NCBI RefSeq assembly: GCF_033568475.1
Contig: NC_133122.1
Span: forward strand, 185,585,449 to 185,649,448
Reading direction: 5' to 3'
Length of the DNA stretch: 64,000 nt
Source of the DNA: Henckelia pumila
Lineage: Eukaryota; Streptophyta; Magnoliopsida; Lamiales; Gesneriaceae
The notes beneath the pieces are model-generated. The model was given only the letters and a program-made list of their open reading frames with translations, did not search any database and was not told where the DNA came from. Positions 4,815 through 64,000 of this stretch are shown piece by piece; the first letter of the stretch is position 1; the number at the start of each line of letters is the position of its first letter. Made by a program: the position numbers and the translations under genes.

Positions 4815-5460
4815 CCAAGTTACAAAGACTCTTGCAGCAGTCAAGTCGAAATCATCTTGTTCAATTGAGAAAACTGTCGAGCAATTGAGTAATGACGCCA
4901 TGCCATTATTTGTGAAAAGTTTGGAAAATTTACGAGGAATAATCAAGGTGGATCTATAGAAGAAATTGCCAGAAGAACTCAACTGATGAGTCAAATGCAT
5001 GATAGACCACTTTATTGCCGACTGTACCAAGCCAAAGAAAGATGAGAAGAAGTCAGTTGAGAAGGGCAATAAGCCCTATGAGAGAAGAATGAAATCCAAA
5101 TCCAAAGAGGAAAAGAATCCATACAAAAAGAGGCACAAGGCGTTGATAGCAGAATAAAGCAAAGTAACGTGGGCAGATTCCGATGTGACTTATCTGAGTC
5201 ATAGACATCAAGCAACTACAGTGATGATGAGAAAATCAAGTGTTTGATGGTCATTGATGATCAACCATCCACAAGAAAACATGTATTCGATTTTAACTCA
5301 AGTGATTTTACACGGGAAGATCTGAAAAATGCATTGCATGAAATGGTAAATGACTACGACAAATTGTCCTTGTCATATAAGGAAGTTAAAGCAAAGCAAA
5401 AGGGTCTGCCAGACACATCAACTGAACCAAGTTGAGAACAATCGGTTGAGAAATACCCTT
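4815..5460 (+). pseudogene. Ty1/copia gag remnant
   Basis: Pieces of plus-strand frames read as a plant copia Gag C-terminal half: KTLAAVKSK..., then ISNDAMPLFVK-like text near 4890-4915, then KNPYKKRHKALIAE, and finally an open stretch at 5244-5435 with DQPSTRKHVFDFNSSDFTRE followed by LSLSYKEVKAKQK. Stops and frame changes lie between them. The Athila-type LTR ends exactly at its left margin, so that element appears to have inserted into this copia copy. No protease or polymerase follows. Confidence 0.6.
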
Positions 5461-6073
5461 CAAAAGGCAAAACAAAACAAAACAAAATAAAAATCTCTAT
5501 TTTAAACTTCATGTGACAATGTTCTTCATTTGTCGTGTCTTCATTTTAATTTAAATGTAAATATGTTAGAAATAAAAATTTAATAACAACAACAAAAATA
5601 ATAATAAATATTCATGTTTTAACAACACGCACAATGCGTGCTCGGACATTTCATAAAGATGACATATATATGATTGATATTAATTAGTCAAGATTTTGTA
5701 AAATTTGATGAGAATATAATTTTATATTTATAGCATAAACACATGAATATAAATCAAACATACAATTTTGCAAAATTCCGATCAGAAATTTTAATGTATG
5801 CTTGAATTATCCAATATTTCGGTGAAAATTTTTAAAAACTTGTTTATATTTATAAATAAGATATCGTTTTGGTATTGCCCCTAAACTTTGTTGAAAATTT
5901 TGGAACATCGGGCCAGTAAGATCAGATAAATCCTTTTATTTTGGATCTTGGAAGATCGGCGATCCATTTATATAAACATCTTTGATCGCAAATAGTTGAA
6001 ACTCAAAATTGCAAGAGATTACAACCAAATAATTGAATGGCCTTCAATAGTCAAAATTGTTGCAACAAAATTT
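5461..6073. other. AT-rich intergenic spacer
   Basis: It lies between the copia gag remnant and the 3' end of CCB1. No open frame, repeat boundary or RNA gene is visible. The last 70-100 bases are probably the CCB1 3' UTR. Confidence 0.5.
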
Positions 6074-10518: not shown

Positions 10519-10980
10519 TTCCTTTGCATTCCCAACAGGACAAGATTTATTCTTGGGGCTTGGGTGTTTTTGCTCTCCTAACTATGAAATGATAAAATGG
10601 ATAAAAGATGTCATACCGTCATTTCTTTTTTCCTTTAAAAAAAAAAAAAAAAAAAAAAACTGATGCATACGTATTTTTCCAAGGCAGCATAAATATGGGG
10701 ATTAAGGCATACCGATCCATGTGGAAGTTTTAATTGGTACAAAATTCTCTATGTAAAATAAATAGTCTAACATATTTATGTAAGTTCAAAACTTTTGCTG
10801 CCCCTTTTTCTATTTTAAATAAATTCGATTAGCAAATGACTTCTATACTCTCATATAAATTAATTTTACGTCGTCGTTTTCCACAAAAATCTTGCACACA
10901 TCAACAAACGCGGGGAGGGGTGATTTTCTCTCACGAACCCTAATTGTGAGCCAACGGCTTGTTGAAGAGAAATCGAAATG
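10519..10980. other. 5' flank of the SINA-like gene
   Basis: Contains a 22-base A run (10639-10660) and AT-rich sequence; the SINA-like promoter should lie here. No coding sequence is seen. Confidence 0.4.
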
Positions 10981-41781: not shown

Positions 41782-42183
41782 AAAATTATTCCATCGAATT
41801 CATAATACTTTGTACACACATAGGGATGTAATCGAGTCGAATCGGGCTGAGCTCTTGAATGTTTGGACTTGACTCGTTTATAATCGAGCCGAGATCGAGT
41901 TTTAGTTAACGAATATATTCATGGCTCACGAGCTTATTCGAGTTTTTATTGAGCCTAAAAGAACTTAATAAATACAAATATAAATTTAAATATTTATTAA
42001 ATTTATTAAAAATTAAATGTTATATTTAGAAAAAAATATAATATTTTTTAAAATTTGTAATTTTATTCTAATTATATATTTTATATATTTTCCACAAGTA
42101 AAAATGTAAAATCTATAAATCAAATATCAAAACTATTATTTTTTCATCTAAGAGCTGACTTACGAGTTTACTAACGGACCTAT

Positions 42184-43518
42184 TGTTGCGTAATTTTGTT
42201 CCCGCAAGTGCACGGTGTCAAGTTTTATATGATGAATCAAGTATCGTTCGAGAAGTAATATGAAAATATTCAGTCCTTGTAATTAAAATAGTACTAATTT
42301 TATTTAGAAAATCAAAGTTTGAAAAGGTTTGCAAAAAATTTAAATAAGCTGAGGATTTTAAATCACGCACACAAAATTCAGAGATTAATCAATCAGAGAA
42401 AAAATGGTCTAGACGTTTAGATTTCACCTGGTTTCGACAACAATCACTCCTAAATAATTCATTTTCATGAATTGCTTTCAATTAATAACCAAGAACACTC
42501 AAGTTTATTATTCCCTCTCCCGAGTGCCGAATAAAATATATCAACTACAGTTCAATTCTAATATCCCTATTAAGAATCTACTTGCAGTGATCTATGTAAA
42601 ACAATGTTCTTTTCTAAGTTCCGTTAAAATTATATACTTTCTCGAGCTATATAAATAATTAACAGTGTAATTTCTATTGGTCCTATTCAAAATCCCCTCT
42701 GTCGAGTGCCAGATTTCAAATAAATATTACAATTCAATTAGTGATCAAGTAATTGAAGAGACATTCAATTCTAGAAACACAATTAATCTAGAGAAACTCA
42801 ATTCAATAAAATCACAAATTCATGAAAGTGTCTACACCAGGTTCCATCCGACCTCTAGACTCTAAAAGTTTAGTTCATAATCGAATTTAAATAAACACAA
42901 ACATGTTTATAAATCTCAACATCAATTCAATAAATATAAAATTCAAAGTAAGAAAACAAATCCGTGTCGGTCTTCTGTGTCCAGTTGATCGACATCCGTC
43001 TTTGTTGATTGATGTTCTTCTCTTCAAAATTACTTTCAAGCTCTCCAAATTATGTTCTGATGTGTGTGGCGGCTGATGATAATTTTTTCTATCAGACAAA
43101 TTCCTTTTATATGGCCTCAAAGTCGTCCAAAAAAAATTCCACGAAAATACCCAAGTTTCCTTCCATAATAAAATTCTCGACTTCAGATTTTTCGTCGCGC
43201 GGGAGCGCAGTCAAGGTAGCGCGGGCGCGCGCAGCATGATCGCATAATCAACCTTCACAAAATCCTTCGCAGCGCGGGTGCGATACTTGACAGGCGTGGG
43301 CGCGCGGCCTATTCGCATAATTAGAATTTTTCTCACTTCTTCAAGTCTTGAGTTCCTTTCTTTTTTCATCATTTTTGGCTTATTTTCACCGGAACTAATC
43401 AAATTCCATTATTTTCTGCAAACACAAAAACAACAACAAATCATGCAATATCTCCCAAATAATTCACAAAAGTCAAGTAATATCATAAACAAATTAAGTG
43501 CACGAAATGCACTTATCA
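42184..43518 (-). repeat. 3' LTR of element A1
   Basis: Begins tgttgcgtaattttgt and ends aagtgcacgaaatgcacttatca. TATA-like tttatatggcc near 43105; GC-rich motif array at 43196-43312 on its U3 side. It lacks a few bases of the 'tcccacgtgg' stretch present in the 5' LTR. Confidence 0.9.
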
Positions 43519-45241
43519 AATACCCCCAAACTTGAACTTTTGTTCGTCCCAAACAAAACTAACACAAAACAAACTCCAAAACAATGCAAGCAACAAGAAT
43601 CATCAAAAAGTACTATAGATCAATGGCCTCAGCGTTGATTTCACAAATTCAACAACAATCATGACACACCCACCAACATTTTGAAAACAAGTTTTTAATC
43701 CAAACTAGCTCAACCGTCTAAACTCATAAACTCCGCAACCCACGTTTCAAAATACTCTTGCCCACATTCAATTCAAATATCCATAGTTCATGAGGACTTT
43801 TCAAGGCATCACAGGTTCAAACTTGAAATTGAATCAAAAATTTCATAACATTTTCATGCAAAGAATAACAGTGTGTGCCTGTTTTGATCAAAAATTCATA
43901 CTCATTAAATGCATCAATCAACAGTCCATATGTTAGACTCTCGCAACCCCTCTCCACTAGTATATTGGGCGACTGTGACACGGTCAATATGACTTAATCG
44001 GCTTGTAATGTAAGGCCTGACTCATGGCTACAAACAAAGGAATAAAAATTCAAAAGTGGGAGTAAATGATGCTCTATGTTTAATTTTCTCTCCTTTTCAT
44101 TCACACTTCTCACTTTTTCTTCACCTCATTGACTTTTTCATTCTTTCTTTTTCCACAACATTTTTTTTTATTTTCTCAACTTTTTCAATCCCTTTTTCAT
44201 CATTTTTTTTTCTTTTCACTACTACCTTTTATTTCTTTTCAGCTCTTCCATCACACCATTCCATATTCACAAATATAAACTAGGAGCATAAAAAAATAAT
44301 CTAACATTCAAATTACTCTCTTAAAGATAGGAAATAGTGTTTAGGCTATTCATAGATAGTAAATATATGACCTTGAAACAATGCCGAATGAGATTTTATC
44401 ACACGTTTACACGTATGCCATTCGATTTTTCACTAAGGCTCAAACAAGGTACTAGGAACAACATGCATCAATAGGTAGCTCGAAAGGCACAAACGATTTT
44501 TCAAAAAAATTGCCTAAATCATTCCTAATCACAGTTATGCCCGTATTTTGACTCAAGAGGTGTTCGAACTAGTTCTAGACTAATATCAATCCACAATTAA
44601 ATCATAAAAATTTTCATCAGTGCAGAAATAACAATCATCAGCAGTAAACGATGATTTTCCAACAAATTTCAGATTTTTGTACCTCATGTAATCATATAAG
44701 TGTAGGCTCAAATAGGCTACTAAGGATAAAATTCAAAGAAAATTAGGCCCAAAGAACAAGAATGCCTCAATCATTTCTATGTCTGTATGTTTCTAGCTCA
44801 GGCTCAAGCATTCATCACAGAGTATATATGAATCCATTCATCCAATTGGTTTCACTAGTTCAAAAATTTGTCAGACAAATGGACATCATGGATTTCAGTT
44901 TTAGCACAAAAAATTTACCATCATTGGCCATTTTTTTCACTTCCTTCATGATTTCTTGAGACTTAGCAAACACCAGCATTTCTCATTCACACAAGTTTCA
45001 TTTTCAGATAAAATATAAGCCAACCACAACACCAATCTTTTTCAAAAACAACAAAACTTCCTAAAAGCCCAAAAAATCACAAAACTAAAAACAAGCAAAA
45101 TAAAAACAGAAAAAATTTCACCAATTTTCACCAAATATTGGACACCCCCCCCCCCCCCAAAAAAAAAAAAACTTGGTACAATCATTGTCCTCAATGATAT
45201 AACAAGACAGAGTAAAGGACATGTACCGCACACGATGACCG
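43519..45241 (-). other. 3' non-coding region of element A1
   Basis: Contains the polypurine tract beside the LTR, a conserved block (43939-44040, tcgcaacccctctccactag...) shared with 59560-59660, a long pyrimidine-rich stretch (44088-44250), and a C15-A13 homopolymer pair (45146-45172). No coding sequence is seen. Confidence 0.55.
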
Positions 45242-45647
45242 TTAGTGGTCGCCACCATCCTCATCATCAAAAGGAAGGGGCTGCTCAGTAGGACCATGTG
45301 TGGGCTGCCACTGTGGTGGTGGAGGGAATGGATATGAAGAACTCGCAGCTCCCAAAAACTGATGAGCCAGTGCCGATGTAAAATCCATCATGTAGTGCAT
45401 AATGGCTCTGGACTCCTGCTGAAATGTTAGTTGCTGACGCATTGCCTCCTCTAAAGAAGTAACTAGAACAGTCAATGTAGGAGGAACAGCAGGACGGGGT
45501 GCTGCTTCTTGTCGAGCAGCTGCTCGAGCATTGAAATCGGTGCTTTTCATATGTAGGTGCAGCCTTTTCATCCCAAAATCGGTGCTCATCATATGTAGGT
45601 GCAGAAGAAGATGAAGCTCCAAGCTTTTGTTTCCTCATTGGCGCCAT
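45242..45647 (-). pseudogene. Internally deleted 'putative plant transposon protein' ORF, element A1
   Basis: Starts MAPMRKQKLGASSSSAPTYD at 45647 and soon shifts into the C-terminal part seen at 45622-45242: AAARQEAAPRPAVPPTLTVL, SLEEAMRQQLTFQQESRAIM, DFTSALAHQFLGAASSSYPF, ending PFDDEDGGDH. The large middle domain present in element A3 is missing. Two imperfect copies of a ~50-base segment (APTYDEHRFWDEKA / APTYEKHRF) lie at the junction. In Athila elements this is the position of the extra ORF sometimes called env-like. Confidence 0.65.
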
Positions 45648-46189
45648 TTCTCAAACACTTTGCAAGAACAATTGCAAAAGAAAAATTTCTCAACACCACC
45701 TCCACACAAACTCCCCCCAAACTTCAAATTCAATCACAACAACGATAATCCACAAATGCCAAGTACAAGCCACACTCCACAATTTGCAATCAAAATAAAA
45801 CCTCAACCATAACTCACGTTCAACCCCAACAATTACAACTTCCGTTCAATCAAAACCAACCAAGAATTGGAAACGCGCCACAAAGAGAACATACACGGGA
45901 TATGAGATTAACCACGCAAGCACTTCACTCTTGTAGTTAACAAAAATCTGAGCGCCCCTGTTAACTTGAGAAATCGGTCGGGAGTAAATTGGAAAAAAAG
46001 AAGAGAATAGGTAGTGTTGAGAGGGATATGGGAGGGAAGAAGTGTAGATATAGGAGAAAGTAAGAAACTTGAGGGAGAAGTAGACGATGATCGTAAGGTT
46101 TAAGAATGGAGGATTAGAGATTTAGAAATTTAGGGAAAAGATTTTGAGCAAAATTGGGAAGGGCCGATCTATTTCAAACGTTTAAATCA

Positions 46190-46381
46190 CGTCGCGCGGG
46201 CGCATTAGGTGGCAGGGGCAGGCGCGCAACATGATCGCATTCCCGATTTATTTTGTAACAGACATCGCGCGGGCGGGCTAGATGGGTAGGGCGGGCGCGC
46301 GTCAGGTTCGCATATAATATTAAACACACTCCAGGAGTCGCGTGGGCGCGCATATAAGACGGGGCGGGCGCGCTGCAGTAT
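46190..46381 (-). repeat. GC-motif array in the spacer of element A1
   Basis: Pairs such as gtcgcgcgggcgc ... ggcaggggcaggcgcgc, atcgcgcgggcgggc ... agggcgggcgcgc and gtcgcgtgggcgcgc ... ggggcgggcgcgc, spaced about 70 bases and each followed by a 'ttcgca/tcgcat' word. Confidence 0.75.
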
Positions 46382-47744
46382 TGACCGGCTAAATCGGTTT
46401 GATAAAAATCTACTAGCAAGCGCACCAGGTCAAGTAATAGTAAAATGGACAGAGAGTCCAAGTATCGATCCCACAGGGACTGCAGTCAATTCTCAAGAAT
46501 TAATTATTTAGCTTAATCTAGACAAAATCATAAAAAGCAATTTGATTTAAATAAAATAAGAATTTATAAATAAAAATTGCTTAAGAAATAAGAATTAAAA
46601 TAACTGAAGATAAAAATAATTAAAACGAGACAACCAAGACACACGTAGGTACCAAACAAATCATGTAACATGTAGTTGATTCAGGACTCAGATTTAATCT
46701 TAGATCACGGGAATTCTCCTATCTTGTTCAAAGGTCTATTTCTAGAACAATCAAACCTATTCAAATATTGACGGATTAATCTTTCGTAATTATAATCAAA
46801 TTTGAATGCATTAAATATTTGTGAAAATTCAGTTTACACCCAAACCGCACACTGAAACCAAATTCTATTTCTAGTCGGTTTTACAATATGTTAATTATCA
46901 GAGTGATCAAAATCAATATATCCTCTGTCGACTTGGAATCGATTAACATGCAAGCAAACAGTTGATCAGACTATTCACAAGACAAATATAAATCTGACAA
47001 TCAATAAAATAAAATCAACTTTGAAAAATCCCAAACAAACATCCAAGTTTTCTACATGAATTTGTTCGGCCCAATCACGCAGTCTTGGTTGAAAATAAAC
47101 TACTCAATAATTGAAAACAATAATTCAAAAATAAAAAGAAGAAGAAAATAAAATAAAATAGAAATCTTCTCTCCCAAGCCTTGTAGCCGCCTCCTCTGTG
47201 TTGTTTGCGTTCTGGAACTTCCGAACCCTCAAAAATATGTTATATCTTATATATATATGGTCCGGAACGCCTACTAATTAATATCCTTTCAAAACAAGAA
47301 CTTTTCGGAACAAATCTGACGCCGGAACACGCGCGCGCGCCTGGAGAAGCCTCGCGCGCGCGCAGAACAAAAAAACAGAGTCTGAACAAGCAACTCGCGC
47401 GCGCAGTACAAAATTTCTGCAGCAAGCGACGATTTTGAAAAATTCATATCTCAAGATCTAGCCATCGGATCAAGCTAAAATTTGGACAGCAGCTTCAAAA
47501 CATCTTGAACTTTATTCTGAATGGTGGAGTTTGTATTTGGATCTTTCTAAAATTAAATTTGATTTTTTGAACAAAGCTGCTCCGTAATTCACTCTTCAAC
47601 AATTTATTTTCCTACAAAATTAACCCGAGGAGTGAAATACACACACATGCACTAAAACACATAAAAATACATAAAAACAATATGAATGCACACAAAATAG
47701 ATAAAAATCTATCACAAAATAATGCACACAAAATGCACTTATCA
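46382..47744 (-). repeat. 3' LTR of element A2
   Basis: Begins tgaccggctaaatcgg and ends aaaatgcacttatca. TATA-like tatatatatgg near 47247-47261; alternating CG runs (47329-47362 and 47395-47405) lie upstream of it in element sense. Confidence 0.92.
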
Positions 47745-48969
47745 ACACCCCCATACGTAACTCTTGTTCGCCCTCGAGCAAGACATGCAAAAACAACATG
47801 CAAACAAAAACATAAGTGAGGACGAGTCATGAATGTGCACAGCCTCCAAGAATTTCAATCACAAAACAAAATCACACACGCTCTCAACTTTTCATAATAC
47901 ACCTTCGGTTTAACGTGAACGTGTGTGTGTGTGAACTATCATTCCAGTTTCATACAACTTAGACCGAATTCGTTTCAAAACTGCTTAGAGACCTATGACA
48001 AATTAGTGCAAGTTTCACTCTTTAAGTGCCCATTCCTTCCAACGACTTCTAGACTAAACTCACCTCCCTTGAGATAATGAATTACACACCTTTGGATTTT
48101 GCACCCGGTATTGATTTAGCCCCAATAATTACCCGCTGACTTAGCTATAACTGGATAGGATACGAAAAATCTTTTTATTTTTTTTAATCCCTTCGTCTAT
48201 AGCCCGGATGGAGCATCAACCCCATTTTACCCGCAAACTTAGCTATGGAGCAATGATTAGGATTTCAATCATTGTCCAAGCCCGAATGGAGTTGTAAAAA
48301 AAAAAAAAATTCTAGGTGCGCCCAAGATCATAAGTGTAAACTAGATCCTCATCAAAATTCATTGAACACAATCAAGATCCACAAACCACCTATTGTCGTG
48401 CAATGGTCAAACAGACAGAAACTTCATCAAATCTATCGTTACACTCCACTGGTCTAACACAAGTGCTTATAAATATTCACGGTTCAACCTACAGTTTCTC
48501 ATGTCAAGTCAAGAGCAAAATTTTTCAAAAATCCAATTTTTTCAAATAAAATTCATCATCATTGGCTATTATGACTCATTCTACTAATGCAAGACAAAAC
48601 AAACAACAACAAAAACAGACTAGATGCAAACAAACACAAAACATGACAGATGCAACATAAACATAACAAACAATACAATAAACTAGTCTACCCCCCCATA
48701 CTTATCCAAAGCCTTGCCCTCAATGCTTCAGAACAATGAACAGAATGCATAACAAACACACAAATGCAAAGACGAACAAAAAACACAATGAGAACAAAAA
48801 TAACACTCCTCTGGTTTTTGATTCATCCTCTTCCTTCTTGACAGTATCTTCTGGGACAGCAGCAGCAGACTGTGTATATCAGTAGGCTCGGCAAACTGGA
48901 ATGAGAAAAAAGTAAAAATTAAATAAAAAATCCAAAACCAAAAATAAAATAAAAAACAAGGGAAAGAAC
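47745..48969 (-). other. 3' non-coding region of element A2
   Basis: Starts with cacccccatacgtaactc (polypurine side on the minus strand) and holds no coding frame. A run of A's occurs at 48297-48308. Confidence 0.5.
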
Positions 48970-48987
48970 ACTGGGTTGCCTCCCAGT
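48970..48987 (-). other. Conserved hairpin after the ORF stop, element A2
   Basis: ACTGGG-TTGCCT-CCCAGT: same loop and position as in A1 and A3, with two stem pairs changed on both sides, so pairing is kept. Confidence 0.72.
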
Positions 48988-49005
48988 CAGCGCTAAATTT
49001 ATAGT

Positions 49006-49917
49006 CTAATGCCCGACTATGCAGAAGCAACCATCAAAGAGCGGCTGCCGTACATAGTAAGAATCATACAACTCTACGTATGGGTCTTGATTTCCTTCAC
49101 CCTCAAGCTTGGTGCGATATTGACATGGTAAGCCCGTCGGTCTAGCAATACTCGGCATTAATTTTTTCTTTTTTAAGGAGACTCCGAATCTATGCTGAAG
49201 GTCATAGAGGATGGAATATGCTGGAGGTGGCGTCAATGACAAGAAAGAATCTTCTAACGGTGTACATGGAACGACCATTGACGAGGTAAAATCTGTAGCC
49301 TTGTATGTGTCTTCCTCCTCCACTGTCACTTCTGGCTCTTCTTCGCATGAAGATTCTTCAAAAAATATCTCTTCTTGCTCTGGCTCAATTATTTCATTCT
49401 CTTGGCAGATCTCAAAAATTGGTTCTCTAAGAAGCGCAATCTGTTCATCCAAAAGACTCAAAAATTTGATGCGACTTTCGAAGAACTGGTTTGTCTCTTC
49501 CTTCTTTTTCACAAAATTCTCCAACTGAGCCACATGATCCTCAAAATACCCTACGCACTCTTCTTGATGCTTCAGTGGTTGGTTCGCAAAATTTGTGGAG
49601 TTGAATTCTGGAGGATATTTGTGACTCCAACCTTGTAATGAAGGATCACAATGCCAATGGTAGTCGAAATCCGCCATATTATTCAACAAGTGCATAGCAC
49701 CGTCTTCATCTCTTCTGAACAGGTGACTGCTAGTGGCCAAAGCTCCATAATCCACCCAACTTCTTGTAGTCTCATCCAAACCACCATAAAAAATCTGAGT
49801 GAGCGTGTAGTTCGAAAATTGATGACATGGAAATCTGTTCGCCAATTCATTGAATCTCCCCCAAGCAGCATAGAAAGGCTCTGAGTATTGTTGGCCAAAT
49901 CTTGTGAATACCCGTCA
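49006..49917 (-). CDS. Shortened gag-like ORF of element A2
   Basis: The frame 49845-49006 (279 residues from MANRFPCHQF) is open further upstream to about 49915 (FGQQYSEPFYAAWGRFNELA), which is the capsid region of an Athila Gag. It continues SNYTLTQIFYGGLDETTRSW, then an acidic middle (EEEPEVTVEEEDTY) and ends GCFCIVGH. The N-terminal gag third is missing: only ~135 bases separate it from the primer site. The stop lies 18 bases before the conserved hairpin. It has no knuckle or protease. It may still encode a Gag-like protein, but no upstream ATG in a good position is seen. Confidence 0.6.
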
Positions 49918-50052
49918 ATGATCCATCTCCAAGCACCTCACAAGCAAAAGAGAAAAATAAATTAAAATTTAAAAATAATCAAAGAAACGAAAAAATAGGA
50001 AAAAAAATGTCTAGTCTCAAGCAAATAATCTATCCTAATATTAACTAAACAG

Positions 50053-50070
50053 TCCCCGGCAACGGCGCCA
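50053..50070 (-). other. Primer-binding site (Asp-tRNA type), element A2
   Basis: Minus-strand TGGCGCCGTTGCCGGGGA, as in element A1. Confidence 0.85.
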
Positions 50071-50076
50071 AAAACT

Positions 50077-51439
50077 TGACCGGCTAAATCGGTTTGATAA
50101 AAATCTACTAGCAAGCGCACCAGGTCAAGTAATAGTAAAATGGACAGAGAGTCCAAGTATCGATCCCACAGGGACTGCAGTCAATTCTCAAAAATTAATT
50201 ATTTAGCTTAATATAGACAAAATCATAAAAAGCAATTTGATTTAAATAAAATAAGAATTTATAAATAAAAATTGCTTAAGAAATAAGAATTAAAATAACT
50301 GAAGATAAAATTAAAACGAGACAACCAAGACACACGTAGGTACCAAACAAATCATGTAACATGTAGTTGATTTAGGACTCAGATTTAATCTTAGATCATG
50401 GGAATTCTCCTATCTTGTTCAAATGTCTATTTCTAGAACAATCAAACCTATTCAAATATTGATGGATTAATCTTTCATAATTCTAATCAAATTTGAATGC
50501 ATTAAATATTTGTGAAAATTCAGTTTACACCCAAACCGCACACTGAAACCAAATTCTATTTTTAGTCGGTTTTACAATATGTTAATTATCAGAGTGATCA
50601 AAATCAATACCTCCTCTGTCGACTTGGAATCGATTAACATGCAAGCAGATAGTTGATCAGACTATTCACAAGACAAATATAAATCTGACAATCAATAAAA
50701 TAAAATCAACTTTGAAAAATCCCTAACAAACATCCAAGTTTTCTACATGAATTTGTTCGGCCCAATCACGCAGTCTTGGTTGAAAATAAACTACTCAATA
50801 ATTAAAAACAATAATTCGAAAATAAAAAGAAGAAGAAAATAAAATAAAATAGAAATCTTCTCTCCCAAGCCTTGTAGGCGCCTCCTCTGTGTTGTCTGCG
50901 TTCTGGAACTTCCGAACCCTCAAAAATATGTTATATCTTCTATATATATGGTCCGGAATGCCTACCAATTAATATCCTTTCAAAACAAGGATTTTTCGGA
51001 AAAAATCTGACGCCGAAACACACGCACGCGCCTGGAGAAGCCTCGCGCGTGCGCAGAACAATAAAACAGAGTCCGAACAAGCAACTCGCACGCGCGCGCA
51101 ATACAAAATTTCTGCAGCGAGCGACGATTTTGAAAAATTCATATCTCAAGATCTAGCCATCGGATCAAGCTAAAATTTGGACAGCAGCTTCAAAACATCT
51201 TGAAATTTATTCTGAATGGTGGAGTTTGGATTTAGATCTTTTTAAAATTAAATTTGATTTTTTGAACAAAGCTGCTCCGTAATTCACTCTTCAACAATTC
51301 ATTTTCCTACAAAATAAACCCGATGAGTGAAATATACACACATGCACTAAAACACATAAAAATACATAAAAACAATATGAATGCACACAAAATAGATAAA
51401 AACCTATCACAAAATAATGCACACAAAATGCACTTATCA
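50077..51439 (-). repeat. 5' LTR of element A2
   Basis: Same ends as the 3' LTR, beside the primer site. It differs from the 3' LTR by scattered substitutions and small indels, including in the CG-run segment (51012-51105). Confidence 0.92.
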
Positions 51440-51444
51440 AGTAT

Positions 51445-51670
51445 CGCACTTCAAATTAATTTCTGAGCAGATATAGCGTGGGTGCGCATAGGAGATAGGG
51501 CGAGCGCGCTGCAGGTTCGAATATCATGTTCCAAAGCCTGAAAAATTTTAGAAAATTTATTAAAAAAAAATAGGCTTCAAAAATTGGCCATAATGCACTG
51601 AAAATAATTAATTAACAAAAATTTAAATAAAATAAAAACAAAAGAAAATAAATTAAACTAAAGGAAAAAG
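51445..51670 (-). other. Spacer of element A1, distal part
   Basis: Non-coding, containing one GC-motif pair (51475-51515, tagcgtgggtgcgc / gggcgagcgcgc). Continues across element A2 at 46381-46190. Confidence 0.5.
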
Positions 51671-51688
51671 CTTGGGTTGCCTCCCAAG
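51671..51688 (-). other. Conserved hairpin after the gag-protease stop, element A1
   Basis: CTTGGG-TTGCCT-CCCAAG, a 6-bp stem and 6-base loop, 41 bases past the stop codon in element sense. The flank agtcgggctgaagactataaacca is shared with the other two Athila-type elements. Confidence 0.7.
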
Positions 51689-51729
51689 TAGCGTTTGGTT
51701 TATAGTCTTCAGCCCGACTTTCACCGGCC

Positions 51730-53931
51730 TTATGCGGTCTTTCCCTTCTCTTTCACATGCCAAATATATTCCATGAAACGCTTTGTAAATTTTGATTTCT
51801 TTTTCGTGGTTTTCTTCTTTGGTAAACTTGGCACTTTCTTCTTTGATGATTCAACCACAATCTCAGCTTTTTGGCGGTCCTCCATCTTCACAACTCGCTC
51901 AACCAAACATAATTCCTCGATAAGTGAATTTAGTTCCTTCATGAATATGTTGAAAATAACTCTTTCGTCTTCCACACCCATCGATAATTCACCATTTTTG
52001 ACATTTATTTTGGCATCAGTAGTAGCCAAAAACGGTCTTTCAAAAATCAACGGAGCAACATGATCTGCTTCCATGTCTAAGATCACAAAATCGGCTGGAA
52101 ATAAAAATTTATCCACCTTGACTAGCACATCCTCAACTATACCCCATGGATATGTGATGCTTCTATCCGCCAAGTGCAATGTGATCATGGTTGATTTCAT
52201 CTCTCCCAACTCCAAGGCCCTGTAAATAGACAGTTCCATTAAATTAATACTGGCCCCTAAATCACATAATGCAGTAGTAAAATGAGATCCACCAATTGAA
52301 CAAAGAATAGTAAAACTCTCTGGATCCTTAAGCTTTTGTGGAATCTTCTTTTGTAGCACGGAACTGCATTCTTCAGTTAGGTTCACCACCTCGTTTTCAA
52401 GCAGTCTCCTTTTATTGGACATCACCTCCTTGATGAATTTCGCATAGTTTGGCATTTGCTCCAAGGCATCAGCAAAGGAGATGTTGATATGAATTTTCTT
52501 GAAAATCTCCAAGAATTTGGAGAACTGCTCATCCAAGGCTTTCTTCTTGAACCTTTGGAGATTTGGAATTGGAGGCTTGTACATCGGTTTCTGCTCAGGT
52601 TCAATCTCCTTCACCTCAACTTTGTCCTCAACTGCAGCTTTTTCAGGCATCTTTCTCTCAGGTTGACACTCTGCATTATCCACTTGCTTCCCACTTCTCA
52701 ACGTGATAGCATTACACTGCTCCTTGGGATTTACCTCTGTGTTGCTAGGGAACTGACCTCTGTTATTATCTTTCAAGGCATTCGCCAGCTGCCCAATGAT
52801 AGTATCCATGGATTGAAGCACAACACCCATGTTGGCCACGTGCGTCTCTAAGTTGTCCAGGCGAGTCTCAGTCCTTTCCATCCTCTTGCTCGATTCCTGC
52901 ACAAAATTACTAACAACGTCTTCCAAAGATGGCTTACCCTCACCCTTATTTGCATTGTACCCCGGAGGAGGATTCAACACATTTTTATTGTTAGCGTAAG
53001 AAAAATTTTCATGATTTCTCAAACCTGGGTGATAAGTTTTGGGAGCAGAATTACCTCTATAGCCTCCATATCCTCGGTAGCCATTAAGATTGAGATAATT
53101 CACTTCCTCTGGGGGATGGGATCCTTCAATGACAACTGAAACTCCAGCTGAATCTGCAACGTTCACCTTATTCAGCGCGGCCACTTGTGTAGTTAATGCA
53201 TATAACTGGGCAATAATAGATGTGAGAGGATCCACTGCATATATTCCTACAGGCTTCTTGACACCTATATGCTCAGATGACCATTGAAAGCTATTGATCG
53301 TAATTTTCTCCAACATATCATAGGCCTGTACAGGGTCCTTAACAAAAATAGTGCCTCCAGTAGCAGAGTCCACCGACAATCGAGTAGGCGCGTTCAGCCC
53401 ATTATAGAACAACTCGATTTTCTTCCAGTCTACAAATTTATGGTTAGGACAACGTCTAAGTAAATCCTTATACCTTTCCCACGCCTCGTAGAGCTGTTCA
53501 TGGTCATGCTGATGAAAGGTGCTGATCTCTATCTTCAGCTGTGTGGACTTGGCAGGTGGAAAATATTTCGCTAAAAACTTGACCGCCATATCCTCCCAAG
53601 TAGTGATGATTCCTAGCAATAGTGATTGGAGCCAGCTCCGTGCTTGATCCCTGAGAGAAAAAAAAAACAAGCGTAAACGTATAATATCCTCAGACACACC
53701 ATTAATTTTTACTGTATCGGTTATCTCCAAGAAAGTCCAGAAGTGTAGATGAGGATCAGCAGTTGCACTCCCATTAAATTGGTTCTGCTGAACCATGTTG
53801 ATCAACGCCGGCTTCAGTTCAAAATTGTTGGCGCTAATGGTCCCTCGAGCGATTCCAGAATAGTGAGCCTGGATCGTCGGCCGGAAGTGATCTCTGATTG
53901 GCACCAGGTGAGCTTGATTCTCTTCAGCCAT
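51730..53931 (-). CDS. Gag-protease of element A1 with lysine-rich tail
   Basis: An open frame of about 733 codons from the first in-frame ATG (53931, MAEENQAHLVPIRDHF). The ancestral start is probably at 54030 (MRRSQSAN), but a TAA follows as codon 9 (54006-54004) before FDPEIKRTARALRRARRE. Seen in order: N-terminal segment, capsid (FWTFLEITDTVKINGV, RLRLFFFSLRDQARSWL, KFLAKYFPPAKS, LYEAWERYKDLLRRCP), Gly/Tyr-rich linker (YRGYGGYRGN), ITLRSGKQVD, and an Athila-style aspartic protease with CDLGASINLM (~residue 556) and ADFVILDMEADHVAPLIFER. It ends in a basic tail (PKKKTTKKKSKFTKRF, VKEKGKTA) instead of RT. Element A3 has the same tail. Confidence 0.88.
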   Translation of the reverse strand: MAEENQAHLVPIRDHFRPTIQAHYSGIARGTISANNFELKPALINMVQQNQFNGSATADPHLHFWTFLEITDTVKINGVSEDIIRLRLFFFSLRDQARSWLQSLLLGIITTWEDMAVKFLAKYFPPAKSTQLKIEISTFHQHDHEQLYEAWERYKDLLRRCPNHKFVDWKKIELFYNGLNAPTRLSVDSATGGTIFVKDPVQAYDMLEKITINSFQWSSEHIGVKKPVGIYAVDPLTSIIAQLYALTTQVAALNKVNVADSAGVSVVIEGSHPPEEVNYLNLNGYRGYGGYRGNSAPKTYHPGLRNHENFSYANNKNVLNPPPGYNANKGEGKPSLEDVVSNFVQESSKRMERTETRLDNLETHVANMGVVLQSMDTIIGQLANALKDNNRGQFPSNTEVNPKEQCNAITLRSGKQVDNAECQPERKMPEKAAVEDKVEVKEIEPEQKPMYKPPIPNLQRFKKKALDEQFSKFLEIFKKIHINISFADALEQMPNYAKFIKEVMSNKRRLLENEVVNLTEECSSVLQKKIPQKLKDPESFTILCSIGGSHFTTALCDLGASINLMELSIYRALELGEMKSTMITLHLADRSITYPWGIVEDVLVKVDKFLFPADFVILDMEADHVAPLIFERPFLATTDAKINVKNGELSMGVEDERVIFNIFMKELNSLIEELCLVERVVKMEDRQKAEIVVESSKKKVPSLPKKKTTKKKSKFTKRFMEYIWHVKEKGKTA

Positions 53932-54144
53932 TCTATCAACTTCTTCTCTTCTCGCTCTCCTCAAAGCACGTGCAGTTCTCTTGATCTCCGGATCAAAAAG
54001 TAATTAATTTGCACTTTGAGATCTTCGCATGAACTGCAATAGAGAACAAAAAGAACTCAATTAACAATTAAAAATAAAATAAAAAAACTCTAAATTAAAA
54101 CGTAGACTAATTGGTAACAAGACTAAAAAAAATTCAAAAATTAA

Positions 54145-54162
54145 TCCCCGGCAACGGCGCCA
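54145..54162 (-). other. Primer-binding site (Asp-tRNA type), element A1
   Basis: The minus strand reads TGGCGCCGTTGCCGGGGA, the usual Athila primer site, five bases inside the LTR. Confidence 0.85.
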
Positions 54163-54167
54163 AAACT

Positions 54168-55508
54168 TGTTGCATAATTTTGTGCCCGCAAGTGCATGGT
54201 GTCAAGTTTTAATATATGATGAATCAAGTATCGTTCCCACGTGGAGTAATATGAAAATATTCAGTCCTTGTAATTAAAATAGTCCTAATTTTATTTAGAA
54301 AATCAAAGTTTGAAAAGGTTTGCAGAAAATTTAAATAAGCTGAGGATTTTAAAGCACGCACACAAAATTAAGAGATTAATCAATCAGAGGAAAAATGGTC
54401 TAGAGGTTTAGATTTCACCTGGTTTCGACAACAATCACTCCTAAATAATTCATTTTCATGAATTCCTTTCAATTAATAACCAAGAATACTTAAGTGTATT
54501 ATTCCCTCTCCCGAGTTTCGAATAAAATATATCAACTACAGTTCAATTACAATATCCCTATTAAGAATCTACTTGCAGTGATCTATGTAAAACAATGTTC
54601 TTTTCTAAGTTCCGTTAAAATTATATACTCTCTTGAGCTATATAAATAATTAACAGTGTAATTTCTATTGGTCCTATTCAAAATCCCCTCTATCGAGTGC
54701 CAGATTTCAAATAAATATTACAATTCAATTAGTGATCAAGTAATTGAAGAGACATTCAATTCTAGAAACACAATTAATCTAGAGAAACTCAATTCAATAA
54801 AATCACAAATTCATGAAAGTGTCTACACCAGGTTTCATCCGACCTCTAGACTCTAAAAGTTTAGTTCATAATCGAATTTAAATAAACACAAAACATGTTT
54901 ATAAATCCCAACATCAATTCAATAAATATAAAATTCAAAGTAAGAAAACAAATCCGTAGTCGGTCTTCCGTGTCCAGTTGATCGACGTCCGTCTTTGTTG
55001 ATTGATGTTCTTCTCTCCAAAATCACGTTCAAGCTCTCCAAATTATGTTCTGATGTGTGTGGCAGCTGATGATCCTTTTTCTATTAGACAAATACCTTTT
55101 ATATAGCCTCAAAGTCGTCCAAGAAAAAGCCTATGAAAATACCCAAGTTTTCTTCCATAATAAAATTCTCGACTTCAGATGTTTCGTCGCGCGGGCGCGC
55201 AGTCAAGGTAGCGCGGGCGTGCAGCATGATCGCATAATCAACCTTTACAAAATCCTTCGCAGCGTGGGCGCGATACTTGACAGGCACGGGCGCGCGGCAT
55301 GTTCGCATAATCAGCATTTTTCTCACTTCTTCAAGTCTTGAGTTCCTCTCTTTTTCCATCCTTTTTTACTTATTTTCACTAGAACTCATCAAATTCCATT
55401 ATTTTCTGCAAACACAAAAACAACAACAAATCACGCAATATCTCCCAAATAATTCACAAAAGTCAAGTAATATCATAAACAAATTAAGTGCACGAAATGC
55501 ACTTATCA
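54168..55508 (-). repeat. 5' LTR of element A1
   Basis: Begins tgttgcataattttgtgccc directly beside the Asp-tRNA primer site and ends with the same 23-base terminal motif as the 3' LTR. TATA-like tttatatagcc at about 55097; GC motif array at 55186-55304 upstream of it in element sense. Confidence 0.9.
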
Positions 55509-55650
55509 CCTATTCACGAGCTAACGAGCCGAATATCATAAACCTCGAGCTTGGTTCATTTATATTAACGAGCCTCCTTAAAAGGAGCTTTTATCAAATC
55601 GTGCTTCGAATAGCTCATGAGCAGCTTGGTTCATTTACATCCCTACACAC

Positions 55651-57972: not shown

Positions 57973-59143
57973 TGTTATGAAAAATGATCGCAAGCGTACG
58001 AGTGTCAAGTTTTAATATAGTGATAAATCAAGTATCGTTCCCACAGAGAGTAAAATGAAAATATTTAGTTCTTGTAATTAAAATAATCTTAATTTTATCT
58101 AGAAAATCAATTATCAAGAGGTTTGCAGAAAATGTAAATAAACAGAGAATTTGATAGCGCACACAAAAAATTCAAAGATTTATCAATCAAAGCAAAAATG
58201 GTCTAGAGGTATAAATTTCACCTGGTTTCAACAACAATCATTCCTAAATAATTTATTTTCATGAATTCCTTTCAATTAATAACCAAGAACACTTAAGTGT
58301 ATTATTCCCTCTCTCGAGTTCCGAATAAAATATATCAACCACAATCAATTCCAATATCTCTATTAATAATCTACTTGTAGTGATCTATGTAAAACCAATG
58401 TTCTTTTCTAAGTTCCGTTAAAATTATATACTCTCTCGAGCTATACAAATAATTAACAGTATAATTTCTATTAGTCATATTCAAAATCCCCTCTGCCGAG
58501 TGCCAGATTTCAAATAAATATTACAATTCAATTATTGATCAGGTAATTGAAAAGACAATAAATTCTAGAAACACAATTAATCTAGAGGAACTCAATTCAA
58601 TAAAATCACAAATTCATGAAAATGTCTACACCAGGTTCCATCTGACCTCTAGACTCTAAAAGTTTATTTCATAATCGAATTTAAATAAACACAAAACATG
58701 TTTATAAATCCCAACATCAATTCAATAAACATAGAATTCAAAGCAAGAAAACAAATCCGTAGTCGGTCTTCTGTGTCCAGTCGATCGACGTCCGTCTTTG
58801 TTGATTGATGTTCTTCTCTTCCAAATCACGTTTTTCTGATTCCACAACAGCACTTGACCTTCGAATTTTATTTTTTTTTCTGATTCCACAATAGCGCGGG
58901 CGCGCTACTAAGGCTGCGCGGCCGCCCTACTGATTCGAATTTCAACCTTTTCTGCTCCTTTTATCTCATCTTTCTTCTTAGACTCTTTCCACGCTCTTTT
59001 TCCTTCACATCAACACAAAAGTCATCTTTTATTTCTTTCACTGCACACAACAAAAACAACACAAATACCACATAATTCCGCTCGAAACAAAACAATTAAC
59101 AAGAAACTCAAATACAAATTAAGTGCACAAAATGCACTTATCA
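57973..59143 (-). repeat. 3' LTR of element A3
   Basis: Begins tgttatgaaaaatgatcgc and ends aagtgcacaaaatgcacttatca. Much of it parallels the LTRs of A1 (e.g. 58061-58820 versus 42260-43020). GC motif at 58892-58926. The outside pentamer is gtcct; its partner is not in the window. Confidence 0.88.
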
Positions 59144-60649
59144 AATTTCCCCAAACTTGAATGGTTGCTAGTCCCGAGCAAAATTGCACAATAAACTCAT
59201 AACACATATGCAAGAAACAAGAATCATCAAGAAATAATACGGATCAATGGCTTCCATGTTGATTTCAAAAACAATTCAAATCCAATCATATCCAACCTAC
59301 TAACACTTGAAAAATTATTTATCAAAAAAAACAGCTCAACCTTATAAATTCATAAACTCCGCAACTCACGTTTCAAAGTACCTTTCTCTGAACTCAATTC
59401 AAACATTCACAGATCATGAGTACTTTTAAAGGTTACACAGGATCAAAGTAAGGAAATTAAATCAAAAACATTCACAATAGGGTTAATTCAAATAAAAGCA
59501 GTGTGTGCATGTTGCGATCAAAAAATCATACTCATTAAACGTGTCAATCGACAGTCCATAGACTAGACTCTCGCAACCCCTCTCCACTAGTATATTGGGC
59601 GACTGTGACTCGGTCAATAGGACTTAATTGGCTTATAGCGTAAGGTCTGGCTCATGGCTACAAACGAAGGATTAAGAATTCAAAAGAAGGAATAATTTAT
59701 GCTCAATATCAAATTTTCACTCTTTTTTTTCATTTACACTTTCATTTTTTCTTCACCTCACTGATTTTTTTTTTTTCATTATTTTTCTTTTTTTTTCACA
59801 AGAAGTTTTACTTTTCTTCACAACTTTTTCAACTCTTTTTCATCCCTTTGTTTTTCTTTTCACTTCTACCTTCTTCTTTTTTAATTCTTTTTCACACACC
59901 ATTCCATATTCACAAATATAAATTAGGAGCACATAAAATTCCAACATTCAAATTACTCCCTTAAAAATAGGAAATAGTGTTTAAGCTATTTATAAGTAGT
60001 TAATGTAGGACTTTGAAACAATAGCGAATGGGGGTTTATCACACGTTTACACACATACCATTCGATTTTCAATAAGGCTCAAACAAGGTACTAGGGATAC
60101 ATGAATTACTGTGTAGCTTGAAAGGCTCAAACGATTTCAGAAAAATTGCCTAAATCATTCCTAATCACAGTTATGCTCATATTTCGTCTCGAGGGGTGTC
60201 CGAACTAGTTTTAGACAAGTCTCAATCCACAATCAAATCATACAAATTTCAATCAGTGCAGAAGCAGTAAATGATGATTTTTCAACAATTTTCAGATTTT
60301 TGTACCTCATGTACTCATATAAGTATAAGCTCAAATGGGCAACTAGGGATAAAAATTGTCAATAAAATCAGGTCCAAAAATCCAAACAATGTCTCAATCA
60401 TCTCTATGTCTGTATGATTCAAAATTCAAATGCAAGCACAAATCACAGTGTATAGGAGTTCAATCGTTCACTTGGTTCCATAAATTCAAAATTTTGGTCA
60501 GATAGGTGAACAATCATGGATTTCAAATATTCTAACATCATTGGCCTTCTTTCCATTTCATTCTTGCTTTCTCAAAGTATTCACACTCAGTTCACATTCA
60601 CATAAATGGAAGCCAACCACAGCACATATCACCTTCAGAAACACAAAAA
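59144..60649 (-). other. 3' non-coding region of element A3
   Basis: Parallels 43519-45241 of A1 block by block, including the 'ctctccactagtatattgggcgactgtgac' stretch near 59580-59611 and a pyrimidine-rich stretch (59720-59900). No coding sequence is seen. Confidence 0.55.
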
Positions 60650-61959
60650 TCATAAAACAAAACAAAAGCAAACTAAACTAAAAACAAGCAAAACAAGCAA
60701 AAATTTCAGACAAATTTTTTTAGAATTTGAAAACCCCTCCAAACTTGGTACATTCATTGTCCTCAATGAAATGACAGTAAAAATAAAGGACATGTACCTC
60801 AGGTAGCGACCGTCAGTGGTCGCCACCAACCTCATCATCCAAAGGAGGGGCGGCTCAGTAGTATCAGGAGTGGGCTGCCACTGTGGTGGTGTAGGGGACG
60901 GATATGAAGAACTCACAGCACCCGGAAATTGATGAGCTAGGGCCGATGTAAAGTCCATTATGTAATGCATAAAGGCCCTAGACTCCTGCTGAAATTTCAA
61001 TTGCTGCTGCATCGCCTCCTCAAGAGAAGTAACTCTATCAGTCAATGTAGGAGGAGCAGCATGACGAGGCGCTGCTTCCTGGCGAGTAGCCGCTTCAGCA
61101 GTAAAAGCCCTTCGTGCTTGGCGAGCACGTCTCTCAGTCTGGGAGACAAAGGGTGCGGGAGGTTCACAAGGAATAGAATGACGACATTTCAGCTGCTCTT
61201 CACTATCAGGCCATGTCACTCCGACAGCAACACATAGATAATTAATCAGAGAAGCCAAGGCAAGACCACCTGTGGTTTTTCCTGCCACCACTTTAAAAAT
61301 TGTCGCTTGACATATTTGGCCTAAATCAATGATTTTTCCCGTCAAAATGCAATAAACAAGAATTGCACTATCGCGCGTCACATCATGATCATGATCGGTT
61401 GGTTTCAGTCTCGAACAAAAAAAGGTGTACCAAATCTTAGCATTATCCAACAATTCAATTTTCTTCAGCATAGCCGGTTGATTTTCTGGACCCAGTCTCC
61501 ACTCATCCCCAGGTTTGCAAATACGGCGCAAGATCGCGTCATAATCAACTTCTCTCGCTGAGTACTCGACATATTCATCATGCATAAGGGTCGGCATCTC
61601 ATAGATATTATTAATCGTATGTGAATCAAAAGGCAACAACTTGCCTCTCACCAGAACCCTCATCCCATCATTCCGGACTTTCAAATTAGCATAAAACTCT
61701 CTGAAAAGAGACATAACTGCATCCATAGGCTGTTAAGCAAACTTCAACCAATGCCTAGCAAAAACAATTTGGGCAACCGCACACACCGGATGATCCGGAT
61801 CAAAACCACTTGTCATATCAAATCCACGCTCCGCCAACATAATCTTAGATAAGAGTTTTTGATAATTCTCGGCAGCCTTTTCATTCCAAAATCGATGTCA
61901 TTATATGCCAAAGCGGATGAAGACGATGCCCCATATTTTTGTTTTTTCTTTGGGACCAT
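60650..61959 (-). pseudogene. 'Putative plant transposon protein' (Transposase_32-like) ORF of element A3
   Basis: The start is at 61959 (MVPKKKQKYGASSSSALAYN). A frameshift near 61885 and a stop near 61733 precede the long frame 61726-60650, which reads MDAVMSLFREFYANLKVRND, VRGKLLPFDSHTINNIYEMP, EVDYDAILRRICKPGDEWRL, AKIWYTFFCSRLKPTDHDHD and ILVYCILTGKIIDLGQI. This is the plant domain catalogued as a putative plant transposon protein, common in Athila-type elements; its function is unknown. A Pro/Gln-rich C-terminal part follows (SLEEAMQQQLKFQQESRAFM). Compared with A1 the end has lost frame near 60845. Confidence 0.7.
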
Positions 61960-62772: not shown

Positions 62773-62915
62773 TTCGAATTAGAAATTTTCAAACCTAAAA
62801 AATTTTGAAAAATTGATGAAATTAGGGTCTAAAAATTGATAATAATAACTAGAAAAAAATTACATAACAAAACTGAAATAAAATGAAAACAAAACTAAAT
62901 AAAATAAAGGAAAAG

Positions 62916-62933
62916 CTTGGGTTGCCTCCCAAG
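62916..62933 (-). other. Conserved hairpin after the gag-protease stop, element A3
   Basis: CTTGGG-TTGCCT-CCCAAG, identical to A1 and at the same distance (41 bases) from the stop. Confidence 0.7.
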
Positions 62934-62974
62934 TAGCGCTTGGTTTATAGTCTTTAGCCCGACTTTTACCGGTC

Positions 62975-64000
62975 TTATGCTGTCTTTCCCTTCTCTTTCA
63001 CACGCCAAATATATTCCACGAACCGCCTTTTAAATTTTGATTTCTTTTTCGTGGTCTTCTTCTTTGGTGAACTTGGCGCTTTCTTCTTTGATTCAACCGC
63101 AATATCAGCTCCTTGTCGACCCTTTAGCTTCACAACAGGATCAACCATACATAGTTCTTCGATGGGTGGATTGGGTGCCTTCATGAAAATATTAAAAATT
63201 ACTCGTCTGCCTTCTACACCCATTGACAATTCACCCTTCTTCACTTCAATTTTTTCATCCGTCGTAGCCAAAAATGATCTCCCAAAAATCAATGGCGTGG
63301 TATGCTCTTCTTGTATATCCAGAATCACAAAATCCGCCGAAAAAATGAATTTATCCACCTTGATGAGTACATCTTCTATGACACCTCGTGGATACTTTAT
63401 GCTTCTATCTGCTAACTGCAGAGTGATCGATGTCGGCTTCATCTCCCCAAGATCCAACGCCCTGTAAACAAAAAATGACATTAAATTAATACTGATCCCT
63501 AAATCACATAACGCAGTAGTAATATGAGATCCACCAATGGAACAAGAAATAATAAAACTCCCTGGATCCTTAAGCTTTTGTGGCATCTTATTTTGTAGCA
63601 CGGCACTGCATTCTTCAGTGAGATTGACCACTTCATTCTCATGCAGCTTCCTCTTCTTGGACATCACCTCCTTGATGAACGTTGCATAATTCGGCATTTG
63701 TTCCAAAGCATCAGCAAAGGGGATATTGATATGAATCTTCTTGAAAATCTCCAAGAACTTGGAGAACTGCTCATCCAAAGCCTTCTTCTTGAACCTTTGG
63801 GGACATGGAAGAGGAGGCTTGTACATCGGTTTCTGTTCAGGTTCAGGCTCCTTCTCCTCGAATTTCTTCTCTTCAACTGCAACTTTTTCAGACGTCTTGC
63901 TCTCAGGTCTGCCTTCTTCATTATCCACCTGCTTCCCACTCCGCAACGTGATAGCATTACACTGCTCCTTGGGATTTACCTCTATGTTTCTAGGGAACTG
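62975..64000 (-). CDS. Gag-protease of element A3, C-terminal part
   Basis: Open from the window edge (reading QFPRNIEVNPKEQCNAITLR) to a stop at 62975-62977. It contains SGKQVDNEEGRPESKTSEKV, FADALEQMPNYATFIKEVMS, an Athila-type protease with CDLGISINLM (A1 has CDLGASINLM, so Ala is Ile here) and ADFVILDIQEEHTTPLIFGR. It ends in the same lysine-rich tail as A1 (PKKKTTKKKSKFKRRF, VKEKGKTA). Confidence 0.85.
   Translation of the reverse strand, partial: QFPRNIEVNPKEQCNAITLRSGKQVDNEEGRPESKTSEKVAVEEKKFEEKEPEPEQKPMYKPPLPCPQRFKKKALDEQFSKFLEIFKKIHINIPFADALEQMPNYATFIKEVMSKKRKLHENEVVNLTEECSAVLQNKMPQKLKDPGSFIISCSIGGSHITTALCDLGISINLMSFFVYRALDLGEMKPTSITLQLADRSIKYPRGVIEDVLIKVDKFIFSADFVILDIQEEHTTPLIFGRSFLATTDEKIEVKKGELSMGVEGRRVIFNIFMKAPNPPIEELCMVDPVVKLKGRQGADIAVESKKKAPSSPKKKTTKKKSKFKRRFVEYIWRVKEKGKTA

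Follow-up and report, generated by a model that had tools for sequence, protein, structure and literature searches.

A polymerase-less, Athila-type retrotransposon family in Henckelia pumila that probably contributes its own Gag and protease

Introduction

Plant families of long terminal repeat (LTR) retrotransposons without a polymerase have been described in several hosts, here summarised as far as the available portions of each source go. In Arabidopsis, polymerase-less Athila elements consist of LTRs and Gag, or of LTRs, Gag and an Env-like open reading frame (ORF), and whole families lack pol; their Gag and Env are under purifying selection (gag omega 0.19–0.38), and families recombine with one another (Marco and Marin 2008, PMC2410132). 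The Triticeae elements RLG_Sabrina, RLG_WHAM and RLG_Derami belong to the Athila clade, lack the polymerase, include members with an intact gag, and resemble their putative autonomous partner BAGY2 only at the 3' end of the LTR and in the primer site (PMC5738225). RLG_Quinta of einkorn is without reverse transcriptase (RT) and integrase, keeps GAG together with an extra domain of unknown function, and has its primer site and LTR ends in common with its autonomous partner RLG_Cereba (PMC11302176). TR-GAGs are non-autonomous LTR elements that encode GAG (PMC8704663), and for wheat Fatima a division of labour between subfamilies with RT and integrase and subfamilies with gag and protease was proposed (PMC6097303). 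In these traits they resemble the case from Gesneriaceae that is added here, namely the elements A1 and A3, found in a stretch of 64,000 nucleotides of Henckelia pumila (RefSeq assembly GCF_033568475.1, contig NC_133122.1, positions 185,585,449 to 185,649,448; hereafter the window). Both probably represent an old and diversified polymerase-less family of Athila type that is semi-autonomous, being mobilised in trans while contributing Gag and protease.

Results

Absence of the polymerase and the shared junction

When the whole window was searched by tblastn (E 1e-3) with nine polymerase-bearing relatives, no similarity to RT, RNase H or integrase was found in A1, in A3 or in A2, an element nested in A1. 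The nine relatives matched A1 and A3 in gag-protease only, in agreement with an initial reading made from the sequence alone (hereafter the sequence-only reading), which had taken both to be without polymerase. Most of these matches stopped near A1 residue 687, and that of P0071 reached about residue 709. The remaining matches in the window were to the A2 gag-like ORF and to a gag at 1746–2045; polymerase domains were matched in other Gypsy elements at about 1–640 and at 29.8–31.8 kb. The sequence-only reading also held that the deletion breakpoints of A1 and A3 would coincide, and comparison revealed the same junction in both, followed by the same lysine-rich tail. The last 37 residues of the A1 tail comprise 15 lysines or arginines and two acidic residues, and no CCHC knuckle pattern was found in the A1 frame.

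Related loci were sampled from the best 150 scored gag matches among 33,570 candidates. Open frames of 740–767 amino acids (aa) were present in 21 of the 150; these were fetched together with four of the six loci that had frames of 705–739 aa (25 in all; the 708-aa and 739-aa loci were left out). All 21 loci with the longer frames combined a gag-protease core with the tail, none with a polymerase match, and among the 25 the core (70–80% identity to A1) was followed by the tail, again with no polymerase match, in 24. The exception, L150, belongs to another family, with polymerase matches. The frame reached the conserved end of the tail in 18 of the 21 loci (extending 8 residues beyond it in L136 and L148) and was altered at that end in L142, L145 and L146. 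A downstream ORF of at least 150 aa related to the extra ORF of A3 was found in 13 of the 25 loci, besides a short match in L139; that of L129 matched PF20167 (E 3.3e-44). A search of viral contigs with the gag-protease returned no relative.

Gag and protease are homologous to those of polymerase-bearing elements, and in A3 and L129 an accessory ORF with PF20167, which we take to be the second ORF of Athila, lies downstream of gag-protease. A1 and A3 appear to be Athila-type Ty3/Gypsy elements. The primer binding site of A1 is presumably of the Asp-tRNA type. A tRNA-Asp primer is described for Diaspora and Calypso, in the part of PMC1142308 that was available; there the LTRs of Athila1-1, Cyclops-1 and Diaspora measure 1.5–2.5 kb, and those of A1, though long (1335–1341 bp), fall slightly under this range.

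A single loss, and the origin of the tail

A tree was computed from the columns of A1 residues 417–686, thus excluding the tail, with midpoint rooting used for drawing only. One branch (support 100/93) separated 29 rows, comprising 24 loci, A1, A3 and the proteins P0043, P0058 and P0028, from 22 others, and within this group A1 and A3 joined each other (97/91). Next to it stood P0097 (98/96), whose record lists domains for RT and RNase H. A previous tree with 101 rows agreed for A1, A3, P0043, P0058 and P0028 (96/92; with P0097, 96/87). P0028, P0043, P0053, P0058, P0097 and P0116 are H. pumila proteins, that is, relatives within one genome. Since these 29 rows cluster in a single clade when the tail columns are excluded, the loss looks single. 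The proposal that the polymerase was lost once and the lineage then amplified is upheld by the common junction and tail and by this one clade beside P0097.

In L154, a polymerase-bearing relative, gag, RT, RNase H and integrase are encoded in a frame of 1681 aa. L154 carries the same primer site as the family; its LTR end is similar but not identical, and its gag is broken. Nucleotide similarity between A3 and L154 ends in the protease (at about 2356 of L154) and restarts at 5567, about 10 bases past the pol stop, indicating that some 3.2 kb of pol have as their counterpart about 0.25 kb of tail-coding sequence.

The A1 tail matched P0043 with 57% over 70 aa and P0116 with 39–50% over 36–41 aa; in four tests of 2000 shuffles each, none scored as high. 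Used by itself at E 0.05 against the best 120 of 566 relatives, the tail matched only P0043 and P0116, both from H. pumila, and weakly P0111 from Cannabis. With 88 candidates, a database search limited to the tail region (A1 residues 655–757) gave no match at E 0.01. It missed P0043, which scored E 7.7e-30 over the same region in the 120-protein comparison, and so cannot be read as a sign that the tail is lacking elsewhere. The protease region of P0116 joined L154 in the tree (100/83), and by eye P0116 tracks L154 further downstream than A1 does and then switches to the tail. The presence of the tail on a different protease implies that, in this genome, replacement of the polymerase took place, or was copied through recombination, on more than one occasion; P0116 is a possible second polymerase-less lineage or a possible cassette transfer.

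Ten gag-protease proteins of 683–875 aa from other plants (P0096, P0098, P0099, P0101, P0106, P0108 and P0111 from Cannabis, P0019 from Morus, P0056 from Ulmus and P0114 from Centaurea) match the C-terminal end of integrase, and their listed Pfam hits include no polymerase domain. They are perhaps other, differently built polymerase deletions.

Selection on the retained genes

Over 340 codons of gag-protease, A1 and A3 differed by 0.604 synonymous (dS) and 0.118 nonsynonymous (dN) substitutions per site, a dN/dS of 0.196 (bootstrap 0.137–0.284). The comparison was extended to 23 loci and A1 (276 pairs; L150, L151 and the partial A3 were left out), and the median dN/dS was 0.166 over the 272 pairs with dS above 0.03. 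None of these exceeded 1, with dS values of up to 1.06. Neutral evolution of gag-protease is thereby contradicted and selection on it, as first suggested from the sequence, is borne out. Median values were 0.149 for the core and 0.307 for the tail (three of 232 pairs above 1). For the extra ORF, compared in 11 of the 13 loci (the C-terminal pieces L135 and L153 were left out), the median was 0.287 over 55 pairs, with none above 1 where dS exceeded 0.02. The choice of loci with open frames drops copies with nonsense or frameshift changes and keeps those with missense changes. Purifying selection on gag-protease suggests a family that provides capsid and protease of its own. The view of these elements as helper-dependent parasites retains its selected gag-protease, whereas the word parasite exceeds the data.

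Mosaic composition

Kimura two-parameter (K2P) distances between A1 and A3 were 0.088–0.099 for R-U5 of the LTR, 0.63 for U3, 0.20 for gag-protease, 0.30 for the spacer and 0.24 for the 3' region. Divergence of R-U5 is thus far below the gag dS of 0.60, indicating that the elements are mosaic and that a shared LTR alone is no proof of common descent. The gag-protease of A1 showed dS values of 0.71–1.06 to the loci, and the extra ORF of A3, compared with 11 loci, was at or near saturation (dS 2.2–3.1, not computable in four). Elements have thus exchanged parts. At 3835–4816 of the window, adjacent short matches to the A1 and A2 LTRs mark a possible degraded or mosaic solo LTR.

A hairpin past the stop codon

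A hairpin with an AGGCAA loop follows the stop of the gag frames of A1, A3 and A2 and that of the polymerase frame of L154, and is therefore kept in a polymerase-bearing copy, in the gag-protease family and in the small-gag element A2. Exact copies of its core in the window are three in number, each close to one of the three gag stops; when up to two mismatches were allowed, five matches appeared, against a shuffle mean of 1.37 and with one of 100 shuffles reaching five. The exact 12-base core was present in 18 of the 25 fetched loci, and a changed core at the same place in L133, L140, L143, L144 and L147. In an alignment of 26 rows (22 of the 25 loci with A1, A3, A2 and L154; L146, L150 and L151 were left out), 93.8% of the cells pair, compared with at most 54.9% for sliding partners. 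Three pairs were changed on both sides (12 cells) and the covariation score was reached by none of 500 shuffles, counts that kinship among the rows can inflate; with three sequences, the paired changes were weak (reached by 59 of 500 shuffles). It also counts against the hairpin that further pair types did not rise above shuffles (306 of 500) and that, of 25 rows, 11 do not form one of the pairs in the small stem. Folding-energy z-scores of the region were near zero (0.10, 0.22 and −0.27) and hence ordinary, so that the case for the hairpin depends on conservation and paired changes rather than stability.

Rfam returned no family at the gathering threshold for positions 42000–64000. The 14-base core was found in at least 120 stretches of viral contigs, which was attributed to chance, given how short the word is. 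Among the 10 papers listed out of 8,508 in a term search, no title or abstract opening dealt with such a hairpin in Athila, and the sole paper matched by the letters of the hairpin concerned an E. coli prophage.

Anatomy of the three insertions

Positions of the features are collected in Table 1. A1 is a complete insertion on the minus strand (42184–55508), with two LTRs, TG...CA ends and a target-site duplication; its LTRs are 95.35% identical (K2P 0.048). A3 is likewise complete and built on the same plan, running from 57973 to past 64000 and finishing in the adjoining 4 kb, which include the 5' LTR and, with two mismatches, a primer site; both outer ends are bordered by an AGGAC repeat. The common plan attributed to the two elements held for LTRs, primer site, gag-protease, tail, hairpin and spacer but not fully for the extra ORF, which is reduced in A1. 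There it is without the stretch equivalent to A3 61107–61871, which holds its only recognised domain, and PF20167 had no match in the two A1 frames scanned, although it was matched in A3. The 5' part of the A3 extra ORF is out of frame. The gag-protease of A1, described in the sequence-only reading as almost intact, is open over 757 aa but is cut off from the ATG where the frames of other copies start by a stop 8 codons past that ATG, just upstream of the open frame, and that of A3 has a frame change near the position equivalent to A1 residue 230. In the 3' non-coding region, A1 43853–44097 and A3 59483–59727 are 84% identical, slightly above the 79% of the region. About 270 bp of the A3 5' LTR (L155 2253–2523) are absent from its 3' LTR in the window.

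A2 sits inside the A1 spacer and is, beside A1 and A3, a third polymerase-less element. Its LTRs (1363 bp) are 96.98% identical; the K2P of 0.031, against 0.048 for A1, agrees with A2 being the younger insertion. The 18-nt primer site is exact in both A1 and A2. No protease model matched the gag-like frame of A2 and no polymerase was found. This frame has 11 relatives of 249–490 aa, nine of them in Cannabis (mostly 315–331 aa) and one in Primulina (49% identity over 99%). A2 may be a member of a small-gag family, possibly old and widespread.

Elsewhere in the window, ORFs at 8171–8839 and 10027–10581 showed similarity to Sina domains, clear for the zinc finger (E 1.8e-10) and weak for the RING (E 0.056), and are perhaps exons of a plant SINA-type gene.

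Table 1. Features of the elements A1, A2 and A3 (window coordinates)
Feature	Position	Strand	Details
A1 target-site duplication, upstream copy	55509..55513	-	ATAGG
A1 5' LTR	54168..55508	-	1341 bp; TGATAAG...GCAACA
A1 primer binding site	54145..54162	-	18 nt
A1 gag-protease frame	51730..54003	-	757 aa stop to stop; PF03732 E 1.1e-19
A1 lysine-rich tail	51733..51945	-	residues 687–757; 71 aa, 20 K+R
A1 post-stop module	51668..51720	-	small stem and hairpin with AGGCAA loop; hairpin 51688–51668
A1 spacer with GC-rich motifs	45640..46376	-	downstream of A2 insertion; 75% identity to A3
A1 extra-ORF remnant	45240..45647	-	about 765 bp less than A3
A1 3' non-coding region	43519..45240	-	1.7 kb; polypurine tract at end
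A1 3' LTR	42184..43518	-	1335 bp; TGATAAG...GCAACA
A1 target-site duplication, downstream copy	42179..42183	-	ATAGG
A2 nested element	46382..51439	-	LTRs 50077–51439 and 46382–47744; target repeat ATACT
A2 primer binding site	50053..50070	-	identical in sequence to A1 site
A2 small gag-like frame	49006..49914	-	302 aa; weak PF03732 match only, E 0.075
A2 hairpin	48969..48986	-	directly past gag stop; small first stem overlaps last gag codons; module 48969–49020
A3 gag-protease	62975..64000	-	last 341 aa including tail; runs past window edge
A3 hairpin	62913..62933	-	module 62913–62965
A3 extra ORF	60650..61732	-	360 aa stop to stop; PF20167 E 1.2e-30
A3 3' LTR	57973..59143	-	

Discussion

The results are best explained by an old, diversified and semi-autonomous family, a reading that we hold with considerable confidence. 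The data show that the part encoding RT, RNase H and integrase, about 3.2 kb in L154, is absent in this lineage, with about 0.25 kb in its place adding the lysine-rich tail to Gag-protease. Retained are the ends of the LTRs, the primer site, the hairpin past the stop and, in some of the copies, an extra ORF with PF20167; dN/dS is well below 1 in gag-protease, tail and extra ORF. The family would be transcribed and its particles would contain its own Gag and protease, with reverse transcription and integration carried out by enzymes of polymerase-bearing relatives whose LTR ends resemble those of the family and whose primer site is the same. Mobilisation in trans is the simplest reading because precedents are known in Athila, Sabrina/WHAM/Derami, Quinta/Cereba, Fatima and TR-GAG.

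Several points weigh against this explanation. Mobilisation in trans is inferred, not observed, and both A1 and A3 are broken copies. The loci were picked by frame length, so that the counts are silent on copy number and on the share of broken copies, and in 11 of the 25 the primer site has one or two mismatches. The 29-row tree is unrooted; the gene models P0058 and P0028 end before the end of the tail and were grouped by core and post-protease similarity; P0097 is known as a gene model alone, and the gag of L154 starts in another frame. A second protease background, that of P0116, also bears the tail. The last 38 codons are less constrained (dN/dS 0.362, 11 of 222 pairs above 1), and pairwise dN/dS mixes lineage history with decay after insertion.

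That A1 and A3 are ordinary autonomous copies which lost the polymerase separately after insertion, their likeness in plan being coincidental, is very improbable. Both are indeed broken in other ways, but the junction and homologous tail that A1 and A3 share with 24 further loci are decisive against it, as are, in addition, the single tree group and a constraint that holds across dS values of up to 1.06. It also seems unlikely that the family moves wholly on the Gag and Pol of other elements, its low dN/dS being a relic of autonomous ancestry. Pairwise dN/dS cannot part past from present selection, a caution also voiced in the available part of PMC2410132; against this, the tail was seen in no form with a polymerase match and is under constraint itself, and dS within the group reaches values that point to a time later than the inferred loss.

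A more serious rival, though one we consider doubtful, is that no one founding deletion existed and that a cassette of tail and hairpin was copied by template switching onto different Athila-type backbones. P0116, with a protease close to L154 and a tail like that of A1, is in line with this, as are the disagreement between LTR and gag divergences and the extra ORF of A3, far more diverged from other copies than gag is; such recombination is reported for Arabidopsis Athila (PMC2410132, in the part available). The grouping of the 29 rows on columns outside the tail argues that one event is enough for A1 and A3. The tail might, as a speculative suggestion, be a mobile, nucleic-acid-binding capsid end that replaced the polymerase, is paired with the hairpin for packaging of the family's RNA into mixed particles and has moved to the P0116 backbone; a nucleic-acid-binding role is proposed because of the missing CCHC knuckle pattern.

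The family supports the view that plant retrotransposon populations include polymerase-less families with some genes under selection. It shows what is retained (capsid, protease, primer site, LTR ends and hairpin) and what replaces the polymerase (a basic tail), and makes it testable by comparison how little an element can retain and still be carried along by others. The conserved tail and the retained hairpin are details worth following.

With respect to the polymerase-less Athila elements of Arabidopsis, the ORF of H. pumila differs by its protease region and conserved lysine-rich tail, and the second ORF by PF20167; the main text of PMC2410132 is without the word 'protease', which makes the protease difference uncertain. 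Sabrina, WHAM and Derami live in different hosts, and the available part of PMC5738225 mentions no ORF combining protease and tail. Quinta is centromere-specific and of another lineage, and is described in the accessible text of PMC11302176 as having GAG and DUF1 only, with no protease. Fatima, as presented in the available part of PMC6097303, is another retrotransposon family. TR-GAG, with a gag ORF only between its LTRs, was considered for A1 and A3 and ruled out by the protease region and by the PF20167 ORF of A3. One TR-GAG, a Copia element, was seen transposing in Arabidopsis ddm1, according to the part of PMC8704663 at hand. Compared with the elements described there, A2 is closer to TR-GAG than A1 and A3 are; these add the protease and the tail, and A3 adds the extra ORF.

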